Shown here in pieces: positions 31,018 through 52,003 of a stretch of DNA of 64,000 nucleotides (the first letter of the stretch is position 1; each line of letters starts with the position of its first letter). This DNA comes from Pseudomonas alkylphenolica (GTDB taxonomy: Bacteria > Pseudomonadota > Gammaproteobacteria > Pseudomonadales > Pseudomonadaceae), in the NCBI RefSeq assembly GCF_000746525.1, contig NZ_CP009048.1, positions 904,501 to 968,500 of the forward strand, given 5' to 3'. The position numbers and the translations under genes were made by a program. The notes under the pieces are model-generated. The model was not told the DNA's origin, did no database searches, and saw only the letters and a program-made list of their open reading frames with translations.

Positions 31018-32556
31018 ATGAGTTCGTTGACTGCGCTGCCCACAGCTGTCGCGCCCAAGCCTGTGGCCAGCCCCGGTGGGAGCGGGCTTGCCCCGCGCAT
31101 CGTGGTCGGGCTGCTCGGCGTGTTACTGGCGGTACTCTGCGCCGGCCTCAACGAGATGGTCACCAAGGCGTCGCTGGCCGACATCCGTGGCGGCATGTTT
31201 ATCGGTGCCGATGAAGGTGCCTGGCTGATTGCCGTGTACGCGGCGGCGTCGGTTTCAGCCATGGCCTTTTCGCCGTGGCTGGCCGCGACCTTTTCCCTGC
31301 GTCGCTTTACCCTCTGCGCCATCAGCGTCTTCGCCGTGCTCGGGCTGTTGCAACCCTATGCCCCGAACCTCGCCAGCCTGATGCTGCTGCGTACCCTGCA
31401 AGGGTTGGCGTCGGGCGCCTTGCCGCCGATGCTGATGAGTGTCGCATTGCGCTTTCTGCCACCGGGGATCAAGGTCTATGGCCTTGCCGGTTATGCCCTG
31501 ACCGCGACCTTCGGGCCGAACATGGGCACACCGCTGGCAGGCCTGTGGACCGAGTATGTCGGTTGGCAGTGGGCGTTCTGGCAGATCATCCTGCCTTCAT
31601 TGCTGGCCATGGCCTGCGTGGCCTGGGGCCTGCCTCAGGACCCGCTGCGCCTGGAACGTTTCAAACAGTTCGACTGGCGTGGCCTGTTGCTGGGGTTGCC
31701 GGCGATCTGTGCGCTGGTGATCGGCCTGACCCTGGGCGATCGCATGGGCTGGTTCAGCTCGCCGTTGATCTGCTGGCTGCTGGGTGGCGGCCTGGTGTTG
31801 CTGGTGCTGTTCCTGCTCAACGAATGGTCCGAGCCGTTGCCGTTCTTCAAGCTGCAGATGCTCAAGACCCGCAACCTGACGCACGCGCTGGTCACCTTGT
31901 TTGGTGTGCTGATCGTGCTGACGGCGGCGATCCTCATCCCCTCCAGTTATCTCGCCCAGATCCAGGGTTATCGCCCCGCGCAGACCGCGCCATTGTTGCT
32001 GCTGGTGGCCTTGCCGCAGCTACTCGCGCTGCCGTTGACCGCGGCGCTGTGCAATATCCGCGCAGTGGACTGCCGCTGGGTCCTGGCTATCGGCCTGGGC
32101 ATGCTGGCGTTGTCCTGCGTGCTCGGTAGCCAGCTCACCAGCGTGTGGATTCGCGACAACTTCTACCTGCTGCAGATGCTGCATATCTTCGCTCAACCGA
32201 TGGCCGTGTTGCCGTTGCTGATGCTCGCCACCGGCGGCATGACCCCGCAGGACGGCCCGTTCGCCTCGGCCTGGTTCAACACCGTCAAGGGCCTGGCCTC
32301 GGTGGTTGCTACCGGGGTGTTGGAGGCGCTGACCACCCTGCGCCGGCATTTTCATTCCAACACGCTGGTCGACAACCTGGGCAACTCGCCGCTGGCCGAC
32401 GGCCAGGTGCCGGGCCTGGCCAAGCGTATTCACGAGCAGGCGCTGGTGCTGGCCTCGGCTGACCTCTACCTGTGCATGGCGGTGCTGGCTGCGGCGCTGA
32501 TCCTGCTGATTCCTTTTGTACCTACACGAATCTATCCACCGCGCGCGGTGGCTTAG
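31018..32556 (+). CDS. MFS transporter, DHA2 (EmrB) family, with REP in N-terminus
   Basis: 512 aa, about 14 transmembrane helices; motifs include MLLRTLQGLASGALPPMLMS and GYALTATFGPNMGTPLAG. Proton-driven drug exporter forming a tripartite pump with the EmrA-type adaptor and outer-membrane factor that follow. ATG at 31018 with GGAG about 10 nt upstream. Codons about 19-27 (PGGSGLAPR) are encoded by a single class 1 REP arm just before the first helix, so the cytoplasmic N-terminal tail is partly repeat-derived. Confidence 0.92.
   Translation: MSSLTALPTAVAPKPVASPGGSGLAPRIVVGLLGVLLAVLCAGLNEMVTKASLADIRGGMFIGADEGAWLIAVYAAASVSAMAFSPWLAATFSLRRFTLCAISVFAVLGLLQPYAPNLASLMLLRTLQGLASGALPPMLMSVALRFLPPGIKVYGLAGYALTATFGPNMGTPLAGLWTEYVGWQWAFWQIILPSLLAMACVAWGLPQDPLRLERFKQFDWRGLLLGLPAICALVIGLTLGDRMGWFSSPLICWLLGGGLVLLVLFLLNEWSEPLPFFKLQMLKTRNLTHALVTLFGVLIVLTAAILIPSSYLAQIQGYRPAQTAPLLLLVALPQLLALPLTAALCNIRAVDCRWVLAIGLGMLALSCVLGSQLTSVWIRDNFYLLQMLHIFAQPMAVLPLLMLATGGMTPQDGPFASAWFNTVKGLASVVATGVLEALTTLRRHFHSNTLVDNLGNSPLADGQVPGLAKRIHEQALVLASADLYLCMAVLAAALILLIPFVPTRIYPPRAVA
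31074..31097 (+). repeat. Single REP arm (class 1) inside the MFS gene
   Basis: GGTGGGAGCGGGCTTGCCCCGCG without an inverted partner, near the 5' end of the MFS reading frame. Confidence 0.9.
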
Positions 32557-44802: not shown

Positions 44803-44868
44803 ATCGCGGGGCAAGCCCGCTCCCACCGGGTACGCCGCGCTCCTGTGGGAGCGGGCTTGCCCCGCGAT
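44803..44868. repeat. REP pair (class 1) between algL and algI
   Basis: ATCGCGGGGCAAGCCCGCTC and inverted copy inside the alginate operon; may stabilise the upstream mRNA or damp read-through. Confidence 0.95.
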
Positions 44869-44878
44869 GGGAACTACC

Positions 44879-46048
44879 TCATTTCTTCTGTGCGGCCTGC
44901 GGGTCGTAGACCCGGGTCAGGTCACCGCCGAGGCGGAAATTCCTGAATGGCTGCATGTCGTGCTTCTTCTTCAGCGCATCGGCACCGCAGCGGTAAAGGC
45001 TGCACCAGGGTTCGAGCCAGGCGTATTTGCTGTCGACCTTGAGGTCGCCCATGGCTTGTTTCTCGCCGCTCTTGGTCTTGAACGGACTCGGGTCTTTCGC
45101 CCCGGACAGCACCCGCTCACCGAGGCGCTTGAGTGCGTTGTTGTTTTCCGGACGCACATCGACACCATTGGCCTGGGCAAAGCTGGCGATCATCGCCAGC
45201 GGCGGCAGGGCGTAGTTGTGGTAGGCCAGGGCGCGTTGCTTGCGCTTGAGCTCGTTGGGTAGGAAGCCCTGGGCGTCGACCTGGTTGGCGGCCACCCGGT
45301 ACTCCTTCACCGACCAGTTGAACAGGTCGCGGCGGTCGGTCGCCACGGCAGTGGCCATCACGGACCAGGCAGCCCAGTAGGAGTGATTGTTGATCTTTTC
45401 CAGCGGCAGACCGCTCCAGTCCTTGACCACCTGATCGGCCAGACGCGCGAACCATTTTTCGATCAGTTCGGCTTCCTGCTGATGCGCGGCCAAGGGCTGG
45501 GAGTTGGAAAATTTCAAGTGCAGCCACGACGAACTCAGGCTGCCCAGCGCCCATTTGCGCATGGACTTGCCGGTGTGGTTGTAGTCGGTCGACATCAACG
45601 CATCAGCGCGGGCCCAGCTGCTCAACCATTCCAGGGTGCAATCGAGCTGCTGCGGGCGGCCGTCGCGCATGTACTGCATGACCTGTTTGCTGACCCCGCG
45701 CTCAAGCGTGGTGATACTTGCGGTGGAGTCGCGGAAGGCTTTTTCCGAAGCCTTGTTCAAGGTTGCGCGGGCGCTGTCTGAACCTTCGTACTTGCTGCGA
45801 AACTGCAGCTTGCCGGTGTAAGGCTTGGGGATGGCCTCGCACTTGTAGTTGCTGGGGCCGCTCTTGAGCTTTTCGATCCCGGCGTAGTAACCCTGCGGTG
45901 GAACCAGCCCGGCGGCCTGCGCGGCCGGGCCGAACAGCACCAGAGCAAGCGCCAACGCCCGGTAGGAGCGGGCTTGCCCCGCGATGAGGCCGGTACTGCA
46001 ATCGCGGGGCAAGCCCGCTCCCACCGGCAATGTGTTTGATCTATTCAT
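44879..46048 (-). CDS. algL: AlgL: alginate lyase with REP-interrupted signal peptide
   Basis: 389 aa periplasmic lyase (PL5) that clears misplaced alginate. Catalytic region [13 protein letters not shown] (Asn, His), [15 protein letters not shown] and YHNYALPPL are intact. The ATG at 46048 has TTGAGG upstream, 7 bp after algX. Residues about 8-30 are encoded by a complete class 1 REP pair (45961-46025) inserted in frame, giving an elongated n-region before the hydrophobic core ALALALVLF and the AQA cleavage site. No alternative start lies between the REP and the core, so translation must cross it. Confidence 0.96.
45961..46025. repeat. REP pair (class 1) inside algL signal sequence
   Basis: GGTAGGAGCGGGCTTGCCCC facing ATCGCGGGGCAAGCCCGCTC; lies wholly inside the algL reading frame. 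Confidence 0.95.
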
Positions 46049-46055
46049 GGGTACC

Positions 46056-47456
46056 TCAAGTACGTTTGCACAGCGTCGCTTCGACTTTCTGGGTGCCGCT
46101 CTCCGGGCCCTGGACTTCCACTGCGAGCAAGGTCTGGCTGGCCCAGTCCTCGTCTTCGCGCAGCTGGAAAGCGAAGCGGCCATCGGTGTCGGAGGTTTCC
46201 GGCTTTTCGATTTTCACGTCTTCATGACGGCCGTTCAGGTACCAGAGCGTGGCCTGCAGTACCTTGACCGAGGTGTCTTCGAACTTGAAGTCCAACTGGT
46301 GACGGCCATTGGTCAGGTCCTTGATCACGCCGCCCTTGCCGTTGACCATCAGTTCGTTCTTGCCCGGCTTGAGCGTGGCACTGGCATGCAGCTGTGCCGG
46401 CTTGCCTTCACAGCCGTTGTCGAGCAGGGCGAGCATCTGCCGCCAGATGGTTTCCTGGTCCAGGCGATACAGCGGCGAGAATTCCCAGATGAGGATCTTC
46501 GGCGGGTTGTTCTTGAAGTCGTCGCTGCCCAGGTACTGGATCATCGAGCCTTCCAGACCGCCGCCAGGGAAGGCGACGTTGAGCACGTCGGCACCGATGT
46601 ACTGTTCGAGGAAACCGGAGAAGTTGTAGTTCTTGCCGCTGTGGCTGGTGCCGACCAGGGTGATTTTTGGATTGGCGGAATCGCCGAACAGGTCGTCGCT
46701 GCCACTTTCGCCCTTGGGCTCGGTGACGAACTGGTCCATGTACTGCACCGCGTAACTGGTACCGCACAGTTGCCCGGCGACGTTGTGCAGGGTGCCGGTC
46801 TTGCCCATGCGCCCGGACTTGTGGCTTTCGAACTCGCGCCGTGGGATGTCGGCGAAGGCCGGCATCTTGTGCACGGTGTCGGCGACGATCTTCGCCGCAC
46901 GCTCGGCGCCATAGGGCGTCCAGTGCTGGTCACCACGGAAGTAGAAGTCCTTGCCCTGGTCGGCGGCGGCCAGTTGTTCGTTGGTCAGCGGCGACAGGTC
47001 GGGCACGTTGTAGCCCATCTTGCTGAAGCGGGCGAGCATCGCCTGGTAGTTGCCCAGGGCTTTCTCGTAGTTGAACGCGGCTTTCTCCGCTGGCTTGAGC
47101 ATGTTGCGGTTCACCAGGCCACGGGTCGGCTGGTAGACCACCACCAATTCGATGCCGCGTGCCTTGAAGGCGTCATGCAGCTGCTGCAGGCGCTTGTAGC
47201 CGGCGGGGGTGGTCTGGAACTCGGTGCGCAGATCCTCGCGGGTACGGAACAGCCAGTCACCCTGGGCCTGCACCAGGGTGGTGAAGTTCTGCTGATAGCG
47301 CGTGGTGTAGCGGCTGGCGTCGTGCGCTTCGGGGCACAACTGGCAGCAGGGTTCGGCGCTGAAGGTCGGCGCTTGTACGGTGTCGGCGTGCGCGCTGTTG
47401 CTGATCGCCAGTAAGGCAGCGCTCAGGCCCAGCAGTTTCATCAGATGTGGAGTCAT
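46056..47456 (-). CDS. algX: AlgX: alginate acetyltransferase/secretion complex protein
   Basis: 466 aa periplasmic protein; signal peptide ends SNSAHA. SGNH-like catalytic domain with Asp-His in [12 protein letters not shown] and Ser in [14 protein letters not shown], followed by a carbohydrate-binding module. It performs the final O-acetyl transfer and joins the AlgK-AlgX-AlgG scaffold. 12 bp after algG. Confidence 0.97.
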
Positions 47457-49052: not shown

Positions 49053-50534
49053 TCAGAAGCGCCAGATCACGTCGACGAAGGCGCGGTGCATGTACGAGTC
49101 GGTGTCCTTGCCATAGGCATCTCCCGGCTTGAACACCCCGGCACGCAAGCGCACCAGCGCCGACGGCTCGTCGACCGACTGGCTCAAGGAGGCGGGCAAC
49201 AGGCCCTGCTTGAAGTACTTGGTGACCACCACGTCCATTTCCTGGCCAAGGTCTTTCTCGCCCTGGATCAGCGGACGGTTGATGCCGTTGTCCTCGACCA
49301 CCGCGTTGATGCCGCTGCTGCCGATGTTCTGGTCGCCATCGACGCGCCAGAATTTGTGGTAGATCAGGCTGGCGTCGTAGTCGTCGCGCAGCTGCCAGGA
49401 GGTGAACAGGGTCGCGGCCTGGAGGTTGCCCAACTCGCCACGGAACGCTTCGCCGAAGCGGTGTACGCGCGAACGGGTGCCGGTGAAGTTGGAGCGGTTG
49501 CTCTCCAGGCCGGTCTGCTCGTAATTGCCCGAACCGTCGCTACCACCACCGCCGCTGCCGCGGGCATAGGCGGCACCGACCTGCCAGTTGGGGTCAAGGC
49601 GCAAGCGGATACCGAGGTCGGTGGCCCAGGCGTTGACGTCGCCGCTCTGCTTGCCGCTGGCAACCTGTTCACCGTTGACCGTGGTGGTGTTGAGGCTGTC
49701 GCGATCGCCGGTCAGCCAGGTCACGCTGCCCCAGTAGTTGACGCGGTTCTGGTTGCGCCAGTTGTAGGCGTCGCTGTTGGCCTCAAGGCCCAGCCAGGTG
49801 AGGTCGCCGGTGCGGGTCTTGTCCAGCGCATCGACGGTTTCGCCGGGGCTTTTCAGGTTGCCGTCGTCGTGGGTGTGGTGGGCGCGCAGGCCGACCCAGT
49901 GCCCAGGCGTCCACTGGGTGGCGACATCGCCGTAGACGTGCAGGCGGTCCTTGTCTTCCGGGGCCAGCTCGGTGAGGTCGGTGCGGTACTCACTGAAGCG
50001 TTCGGCGACGCCGAGGTTGGCGCGTAGCAGGGTGGTGTCGAAGGTCCAGTTCAGCGCTTCGATGTTGGTGTCGCGCCACATGCCGTCGTCGTTGCGCAGG
50101 CGCTGGCGACCGAAACGCAGCTGTTCGCCGGGGTAGGCGGTCAGGCCGCTGTAGCCGACCCAGAATTCACGCATCGCCAGGTAGCTCTTGTCGGCTTCGC
50201 GGCCATCGGCGCTGCTGTTGTCAGATTCGGCTTCATCACCGGACTGGCGCAGGGTGTCGGTCTCGATGATGTCGGTAGCGGCTACCGCCTGGCCCATGGC
50301 GAAGGCGCTCCAGTTGCCGCGCTCGCCATAGACCCAGGGGCGCAGGTCCAGACCCATGCCGTTGACGTCACCGCCGGAGCGGGTGCCGAGGTCGCGGTCG
50401 TCTTCGGACTGGGCGGTGATTTTTACGTCCAGACCGAAGTTCTTTTCAGCGGTCATCGCCGCCAGGGTCGGGCACGACCAGAGCAGGGCGAAGCCAAGGC
50501 CGAGGCCGGCTTTCATCCACGGGTTGAGTGTCAT
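49053..50534 (-). CDS. algE: AlgE: alginate outer-membrane porin
   Basis: 493 aa. Signal peptide ([15 protein letters not shown]), then an 18-strand barrel with alternating aromatic-terminated strands and a C-terminal FVDVIWRF ending in phenylalanine. Exports alginate through the outer membrane together with AlgK. Start overlaps the algK stop by ATGA. Confidence 0.97.
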
Positions 50535-52003
50535 AGGGAGTCCTCGCCTTCTACGGGTTGTTGCACAGCCTGCAAAGCCAGGGCACCTGCGCCCTGGCCA
50601 ATGGCGCCACGGGCCTGGCGCTCTTGCTGCAACAGGCGCTCGGCCTGGGCCTTCTGCGCTGGAGTGAGTTGCTGGTCGAGCTGGGCGGCCAGCTCACGCG
50701 ATTGGTCGCTGGGGTTGGCTTGTGCCAGTTGGCTGAAGACCCAGGCGTTGACCAGGTCCTGGCGGATGCCATGGCCTTCGCTGAACAACTGGGCCAGGGC
50801 ATAGTCGGCGCTGAGCTGGCCGCCGCGGGCGGCGCTGAGCAGGTGGTCGACGGCTTTCTGCGGATCGACGTTGCCCAGGTAACCACGGCGATAGAGCTGG
50901 CCGAGGTAGTAATGGGCACTCACTTCACCGGCATTGGCGGCGCTGAGCAGATGGGTTTCAGCCTGCTGTGCATCAGCGGGAACGGTCTTGCCTTCGTAGT
51001 ACAGGCGACCGAGCAACAGTTCTGCGCGAGGCTGTTCAGCGGCGCGGCCCTTGTCGATGTACGCCATCAGCTTGTCGGTGTCACCCAGCTCGGGGAAGTC
51101 ATAGAGCAGTTGCGCGAGGCTGACCCAGGAACCCGGATTGACCGGCGCGACCTGCTCCAGCAAGGCTTGCGCGGTTTTTTCGTCGGTCTGGCCCAGGCTG
51201 CGGTCAGCCAGTACGCGGGCCGTGCTGTCGACCCGCGTGGCCGGAATCGCACCGCGCTGGTAAGCGCTTTTCAGCTGTTCGAGCAGCGCGGCTTGTTGAT
51301 CAGCCTGGCCGCGTTTCTGGTATACGGTGGCCAGCTCGACGTAGCAGATGTCGGTGGTCGTCAGTGCGGCTTTGCAGATTCGCTCGACCTCGGCCAGGTG
51401 CTGGTCATAGGTGTTCTGAGTGCGGTACAGCAGAATCTGGGCCAGGCCCGCTTCCGGGTAACCAGCGGCGCGCCATTGATCGATCTGCTGTTGCGCATGG
51501 GTGCTGGGGAAACTCTGCGGGTATTGCAGGTAGAGCATCGCCAGCGGGATCAGGGTGTTGCCTTCGCCATTGGCGAAGGCTTTCTTGAGCAGGGTTTCGG
51601 CTTCCTGGCGCTCAGCGTCAGAAGCATCCGGTTTGGCGGCCAGCAGACGGCCAAGGCGAGCCTGGGCACGTGGCGAGATATCGGCGGCGGCGCGGTAGGT
51701 CGCTTCGGCTTGCTTGAGCTTGGCCGGGTCGCGGGTTTCCATCTGGATATCGGCCAGACCGACCTGGGCTTCGCTGTAACCGAGGTCGGCCAGTTGCCGG
51801 TAGTTCTGTTCGGCCAGGGCGGTGTCGCCGCGCTTGAGCGCTTCGTTGGCCAGGCGCTGGTCGGGCAGACCGGCGCAACCAGCCAGGCTGATGACCAGGG
51901 TCAGGCACAGGTGGGAGCGGGCTTGCCCCGCGATGAAGTCAGTAAAGCGTCTACGGTTATCGCGGGGCAAGCCCGCTCCCACAGGGTAATTGGCAAGATT
52001 CAT
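50531..52003 (-). CDS. algK: AlgK: outer-membrane TPR lipoprotein with REP-interrupted signal peptide
   Basis: 490 aa. Sel1/TPR-like repeats ([41 protein letters not shown]) form the scaffold that helps AlgE into the outer membrane. The lipobox is ISLAGC. ATG at 52003 has AAGAGGA at about 8 nt. Between residues 7 and 31 the sequence is encoded by a whole class 1 REP pair (51911-51982); removing it leaves an ordinary short lipoprotein signal. No ATG or GTG lies between REP and lipobox, so the repeat is translated. Confidence 0.95.
51911..51982. repeat. REP pair (class 1) inside algK signal sequence
   Basis: GTGGGAGCGGGCTTGCCCCG and inverted copy, 72 bp (24 codons), wholly inside the algK reading frame. 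Confidence 0.95.

Follow-up and report, generated by a model that had tools for sequence, protein, structure and literature searches.

REP doublets, probably tolerated and translated, in the export signals of AlgL and AlgK of Pseudomonas

The algL and algK genes of a Pseudomonas operon each carry a REP doublet, or REPIN, just past the start codon. These elements are probably translated and tolerated within the export signals, with the reading frame held open by selection and the hairpin mainly a passenger. As proposed here, a non-autonomous REP doublet whose mobility presumably depends on a RAYT-type Y1 transposase would have inserted close behind the algL start codon in an ancestor of one Pseudomonas clade and may now be read as part of the signal-peptide n-region. 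Its survival there would be explained by a REP core free of stops in all six frames, by an untouched ribosome binding site and start codon, and by an n-region that tolerates extra length. Host selection for an open reading frame would then leave resident copies with spacer lengths that fit the frame, and the hairpin could flip, be renewed, decay or disappear. AlgL is expected to be exported normally, and the insertion to be nearly neutral.

REP doublets of the algL and algK genes

The window, the whole stretch of 64,000 nucleotides that was analysed, represents positions 904501-968500 of a 5.76 Mb genome in a single contig (labelled G000). Its algL coding sequence (44879..46048, minus strand, 389 aa) is an open reading frame whose product matches PF05426 (3.3e-64, profile search) and, above the cut-off, the NCBIfam model for mannuronate-specific alginate lyase (NF001467). 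By AlgL, the nearest named relative is P. putida 31303 (locus L001) within the P. vranovensis / P. donghuensis group. The ATG lies at 46048-46046 and the algX stop directly upstream at 46058-46056. A Shine-Dalgarno-like GAGG, as read from the sequence (46054..46057, minus strand), stands 5 bases upstream of the ATG and overlaps the algX stop.

The REP doublet starts seven codons past the start codon as an inverted repeat (45959-45985 / 46001-46027) with 27-nt arms that are 96% complementary. On the minus strand, the 5' arm (46001..46027, core 46002-46021) is translated as PVGAGLPRD and the 3' arm (45959..45985, core 45965-45984) as IAGQARSYR. The spacer (45986..46000, minus strand) places 15 nt between the arms and 17 nt between the 20-nt cores for a core-to-core spacing of 37. 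Both cores are exact matches to the family pattern, in which a GT(A/G)G tag precedes a palindromic core (GTGGGAGCGGGCTTGCCCCGCGA plus a GTAGG variant). The hydrophobic core and AQA site of the signal peptide, judged by eye from the translation, follow at 45914..45958 (minus strand), and the net charge of the n-region is +3. A sequence-only reading of this DNA had placed an in-frame REP pair at 45961..46025, within 2 nt of the measured limits, and its order of REP-encoded residues, hydrophobic core and AQA site is the order found in the translation.

The algK coding sequence (50531..52003, minus strand) encodes a 490 aa lipoprotein (NF038194) with a second REP doublet in its n-region (51910..51983, minus strand), again just past the start, with a core-to-core spacing of 46. 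A third doublet of the operon (44804..44867, no strand assigned) is non-coding and lies in the algL-algI gap, where 60/80 of the operon loci compared have REP-like elements of several types.

Copies and placement of the REP family

Calculation places the algL element in an abundant family. At two mismatches or fewer, 613 + 624 REP cores were found in the genome, and the control, the pattern read backwards, gave 0. Two Y1_Tnp matches are present. The match at G000:398810-399133 has REP pairs on both sides at distances of 77 nt and 170 nt, and the second is at least 668 nt from the nearest pair.

The placement of the family was surveyed with a custom gene caller in 2.864 Mb, about half of the genome, composed of 140 stretches of 20 kb and the window, with 16,000 bases read as N. 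This sample holds 354 REP elements, 298 of which have two cores. With five elements at stretch ends left out, 349 were evaluable: 297 are intergenic, 34 overlap a 3' end, 11 are C-terminal, four are N-terminal (at most 40 codons from the start), two overlap a 5' end and one is internal. Here the REP family is thus mainly extragenic, and the algL copy is an exception. Several genes obtain their last residues or their stop from C-terminal or 3'-end-overlapping REPs. The sole internal doublet of the sample (L220:9716-9787) is read through, with 48 codons of its 645-codon gene still to come.

About 11% of the sampled DNA falls within the first 40 codons of a gene (2660 genes at 120 nt each in 2.864 Mb), and even placement would put nearly 40 elements there. 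With four found, N-terminal codons are depleted of REPs, a depletion milder than that of gene interiors (1/349), and a general enrichment in signal peptides was not found among the 349 evaluable elements of these 2.86 Mb. The four N-terminal elements belong to algL, algK, an MFS gene of the window and an MFS-like gene in L153. All four stand before the first hydrophobic segment, an N-terminal feature of 779 of the 2220 complete genes; this position is only suggestive, given that there are four cases and two of them raised the question in the first place. The window MFS gene (31018-32556, plus strand) has a single REP core (31079-31098) with one mismatch that is read in another frame (GGSGLAPR) and directly precedes the first hydrophobic segment; its product matches PF07690 and falls below the cut-off of the EmrB-type model TIGR00711. 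The L153 element (404-475) is a doublet near the N terminus of its gene, which has a strong Shine-Dalgarno sequence.

A scan of the whole genome for the arrangement GAGG-ATG-REP in both orientations returned 22 places: algL, algK and 20 others. Thirteen of these 20 places lie in stretches that were read; their frames are 5-159 codons long, and none of the 13 looks like an export signal when up to 90 residues are judged by eye.

Core spacing and reading frame

The two coding copies are set apart by their spacing, which calculation finds to be atypical. Among 128 head-to-head doublets in the sample (three mismatches or fewer per core), 103 have a core-to-core spacing of 44, and the algL doublet is the only one with a spacing of 37. 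Whole-genome searches, for which exact arms were required, found spacing 37 once in G000 (algL), once in the L001 genome (algL), once in the L002 genome (algK, the L002 algL copy having one altered arm base), nine times in the L005 genome (one of these being algL) and not in L003, L004, L006 or L008. Spacing 46 occurs twice in G000 (once as algK), once in the L001 genome (algK), three times each in the L003 and L005 genomes (one each being algK) and once in L008, with no copies in L002, L004 or L006. The genomes of L001, L002, L003, L004 and L005 contain 87, 11, 229, 3 and 82 copies, respectively, with a spacing of 44.

Both 37 and 46 leave a remainder of 1 when divided by three and so join the frames VGAGLPR and IAGQARSH, whereas 44 leaves 2 and does not join them. 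The core-inclusive length is divisible by three in 13 of the 128 sampled doublets, and both coding copies are among them, for which the chance is about 0.01. When a canonical 44-nt spacer, built from a consensus made by eye, was placed in algL in silico, a stop resulted; among real 44-nt elements, 138/206 readings stay open in the algL frame. It is therefore the exit frame, and not a stop, that generally excludes 44-nt elements from algL. At L003, algL has a 44-nt spacer that departs from the by-eye consensus at 5/24 positions; behind it the trailing arm is partly repeated, and the gene is again in frame.

In family-B genomes, the algK element is 75 nt in those of L041 and L061, where it is unique among 34 and 16 exact-arm elements, respectively, and 78 nt in that of L042, where it is one of two among 12. 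A rule that every coding REPIN is divisible by three holds in these genomes and in the clade of the window; as a general rule it was dropped, since the tag-to-tag length fits in 10/22 head-to-head algK pairs counted by hand. With the element itself often not divisible by three, it is the flanks that keep the algK frame in other lineages.

Turnover of the algL element in related genomes

Operon loci were compared for the best 80 of 189, a sample that leans to close relatives. A REP was detected at the algX-algL junction in 6/80 loci, with none detected at algL outside one clade. Two arms were detected in the window and in L001, L002, L003 and L005, and a variant in L004. Shortened in-frame relics, recognised by eye, are present in L006 (the same in L082), L008, L009 (similar in L083) and L010. 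Together with L007, the insert-bearing and relic-bearing loci form one group of eleven with a support of 0.98. The algL insertion therefore marks a single clade in which six members carry the element, four keep relics and one, L007, is without it. Mature AlgL is 89-95% identical to that of the window throughout the group, whether or not the REP is present.

L007 sits inside the REP clade (support of 1.0 with L001 and the window), and its algX-algL junction is REP-free and resembles that of the outgroups. There a long AlgX tail meets a short AlgL signal with no REP, which looks like a replaced junction, perhaps the product of recombination. By eye, AlgX is about 13 codons shorter at its C-terminal end in the REP clade (window 46056-46100) than in outgroups such as L015, a loss that falls together with the clade marked by the algL insertion.

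The spacers of the algL copies have a history of their own. Compared directly, the spacers of the window and L001 differ at 15/17 positions, and against the reverse complement at 3/17; from this difference, the spacer was inverted in place between the two. The L002 algK spacer is close to the algL spacers, differing at 3/17 positions from that of its own algL, and the L004 algK spacer matches the algL spacers only when inverted (4-5/17 different). These likenesses indicate an exchange between the algL and algK sites and a second inversion. The sequence-only reading had considered the AlgL and AlgK pairs to be independent insertions. In the window this agrees with spacers that differ in both length (37 versus 46) and sequence, and it does not extend to L002 and L004, where the two sites carry related spacers. 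The L005 algL spacer has no clear match to the others.

The algL and algK copies of L004 contain a long variant of the element, whose pattern matches the L004 genome 25 times and eight other genomes 0-9 times. The L004 algL spacer resembles that of the window (5/17 different), and renewal of the arm by conversion would best fit these sequences. Across four algL copies, the arms differ at 1-4/48 positions in genes whose fourfold sites differ by 17-28%, a constancy for which conversion accounts as well as selection does.

The algK n-region as a repeated site of insertion

At the alg44-algK junction, REP-like elements of several REP types occur in 43/79 loci, and all lie between the end of alg44 and the lipobox Cys. 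None was found at the junctions before alg44 (0/79), algE (0/80), algG (0/80), algX (0/81), algJ (0/80) or algF (0/79), and the algF-algA junction has one in 1/79 loci. The N termini of algE, algG, algX, algJ and algF also resemble export signals or anchors when judged by eye. The body of algG gave 29 REP-like matches that were rejected as REPs, since they represent one conserved motif in two spellings and were taken as chance. It had been suggested that signal-peptide codons are a permissive landing site for REPs. The recurrence at algK supports the view that REPs can be gained repeatedly by the n-region of an export signal; as a general rule the suggestion is not supported, with five other export-signal genes unhit in 79-81 loci each and 4/349 elements N-terminal in the sample.

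The lipobox frame of algK is open through the REPs in 43/43 loci, compared to 12 and 22 for the other two frames. When an ATG with Shine-Dalgarno support is required before the REP, the counts become 42 versus 2 and 0. Measured from the most upstream supported start, the median distance to the Cys is 58 codons with a REP and 24 without. The net charge of the AlgK n-region is mostly positive, with a median of 3 with a REP and 2 without, and both ranges reach down to -3. The algK cores resemble the REPs of their own locus, with a median best identity of 1.0 (39/76 exact) versus 0.88 for equal numbers of REPs from other loci.

Alternative explanations

The REPs may instead sit in untranslated leaders, the annotated starts being wrong and translation beginning downstream. 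PMC3733652, in its treatment of P. putida, prefers this explanation for most REPs at the 5' ends of open reading frames. It also agrees with the 17/43 algK loci in which an in-frame ATG, GTG or TTG lies beyond the REP and at least 14 codons ahead of the Cys, and with the TTG and GTG that follow the REP in the algL sequence. A comparison of AlgL residues 1-90 against a protein database gave a similar impression: among 120 of 127 matches, none carries a complete REP-coded N terminus, P0001 begins inside REP-like sequence and P0002 has a relic form, an absence that may reflect 90% clustering and annotation choices. A later start is contradicted by the remaining 26/43 algK loci, which have no suitable one, by algL of L001, which has no ATG, GTG or TTG between the REP and the AQA site, by the upstream frame that is open in every REP-bearing algK locus, and by the frame-fitting copy lengths that are unique or nearly so in their genomes. 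An untranslated leader is thus highly improbable, and from their open frame and frame-fitting length the algL and algK REPs would be translated.

A role for the hairpin in expression would have a strong stem, just outside the initiation footprint or at the junction, adjust algL or algK translation or mRNA decay. The algL region (45940-46075) is predicted to fold as a very stable RNA (-77.3 kcal/mol, z -6.9), and 34/49 AlgK n-regions of at least 40 codons fold exceptionally (60 mononucleotide shuffles each). The REP begins at +19 or later in 43/43 algK loci, counted from the most upstream start with Shine-Dalgarno support, and the tag lies at +19 to +31 in six algL genes. The near-constancy of the algL arms also agrees with such a role, yet it is expected from conversion given hundreds of copies. 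Counted from the last supported start before the REP, two algK loci are only 1 and 5 nt away. The remaining 15/49 long n-regions do not fold exceptionally (z above -2), although six of these have no detectable REP, and a REP was not detected in 36/79 algK and 74/80 algL loci. Four AlgL relatives have lost the hairpin and kept the frame, with mature AlgL as similar either way. The earlier suggestion that the hairpins were kept because they tune translation therefore receives no positive support, and a hairpin retained for expression is improbable.

The algK start might also draw insertions, as a hot spot targeted through its sequence or structure and not by mere tolerance; this would be compatible with tolerated and translated REPINs. 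On an operon tree built from algG, algX, algL and algJ only, at least 20 changes of algK REP presence and 34 of configuration are required; family types were coarse (three mismatches or fewer) and decayed REPs were scored as absent. Shuffled presence gave a mean of 26 changes (lowest 19 of 500), from which presence is scattered almost as if random. These changes and the five unhit export-signal genes favour a hot spot; however, repeated insertion could be imitated by exchange between elements as in L002 and L004, by gene conversion or by recombination of operons across species, and a hot spot appears doubtful. A further, tentative possibility, also doubtful, is a REPIN lineage adapted to coding sequence, with frame-fitting variants of spacing 37 and 46 that persist, a 37-type exchanged between the two genes in the ancestor of L002 and L004, spacers that flip with the frame unbroken, and the AlgK n-region as a safe harbour across Pseudomonas. 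If this were true, spacer flips would give alternative AlgL and AlgK n-regions and possibly heritable variation in export or expression.

Tolerated, translated REPINs are favoured by the rarity of spacings 37 and 46 relative to 44, by the algK frame that is open in 43/43 loci and by six algL inserts together with four in-frame relics. Counting against them are the later starts in 17/43 algK loci, the 138/206 open 44-nt readings, the 10/22 fitting lengths and the 34/49 exceptional folds.

Significance and comparison with known systems

Bacteria, these results suggest, can harbour such mobile hairpins within export signals and still have an intact gene. PMC3733652, where it considers N-terminal REPs, leaves open whether they are coding or reflect annotation errors. 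The spacing test, which asks whether the length of a copy is unusual for its genome and fits the frame, works from sequence alone and may be used on other REP-rich genomes. With algK, one export signal repeatedly takes up mobile hairpins while its frame stays open, and the cost of a coding REPIN, inversion in place and the tolerance of n-regions become directly testable. A search of titles and abstracts found no report of REPs in the signal peptide of algK or algL, or of REPIN spacer inversion. What appears to be new is a spacing that fits the frame, the repeated occurrence at AlgK and a spacer that has flipped; the element itself is an ordinary REPIN, and its place is unusual and probably translated.

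REP classes are treated in PMC3686654, in part of its account. With its tag, palindromic core, inverted doublet and high copy number, the algL element resembles the GTAG-tagged REP doublets and REPINs as described in portions of PMC3116915 and PMC3733652, and as in those accounts a REP-flanked Y1 transposase gene is present in the same genome. According to the part of PMC3116915 that concerns placement, REPINs are mainly extragenic, with 14/1,067 16-mers overlapping genes; in contrast, two copies here are in frame in export signals with a spacing that is rare or unique in the genome. REPs inside genes, N termini included, are described in PMC3733652, and the algL and algK copies are alike in being read inside coding sequence. 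Most of those at P. putida 5' ends are judged there, in the section concerned, as probably non-coding, whereas frame, spacing and relatives argue for coding in the present case. The palindromic elements of Rickettsia (RPEs), in the description given by part of PMC2229807, also lie in frame in conserved proteins and are probably near-neutral mobile elements. By the same description, RPEs are 105-146 bp long and occur in another genus and in various proteins, and the likeness to the algL REP is one of description.
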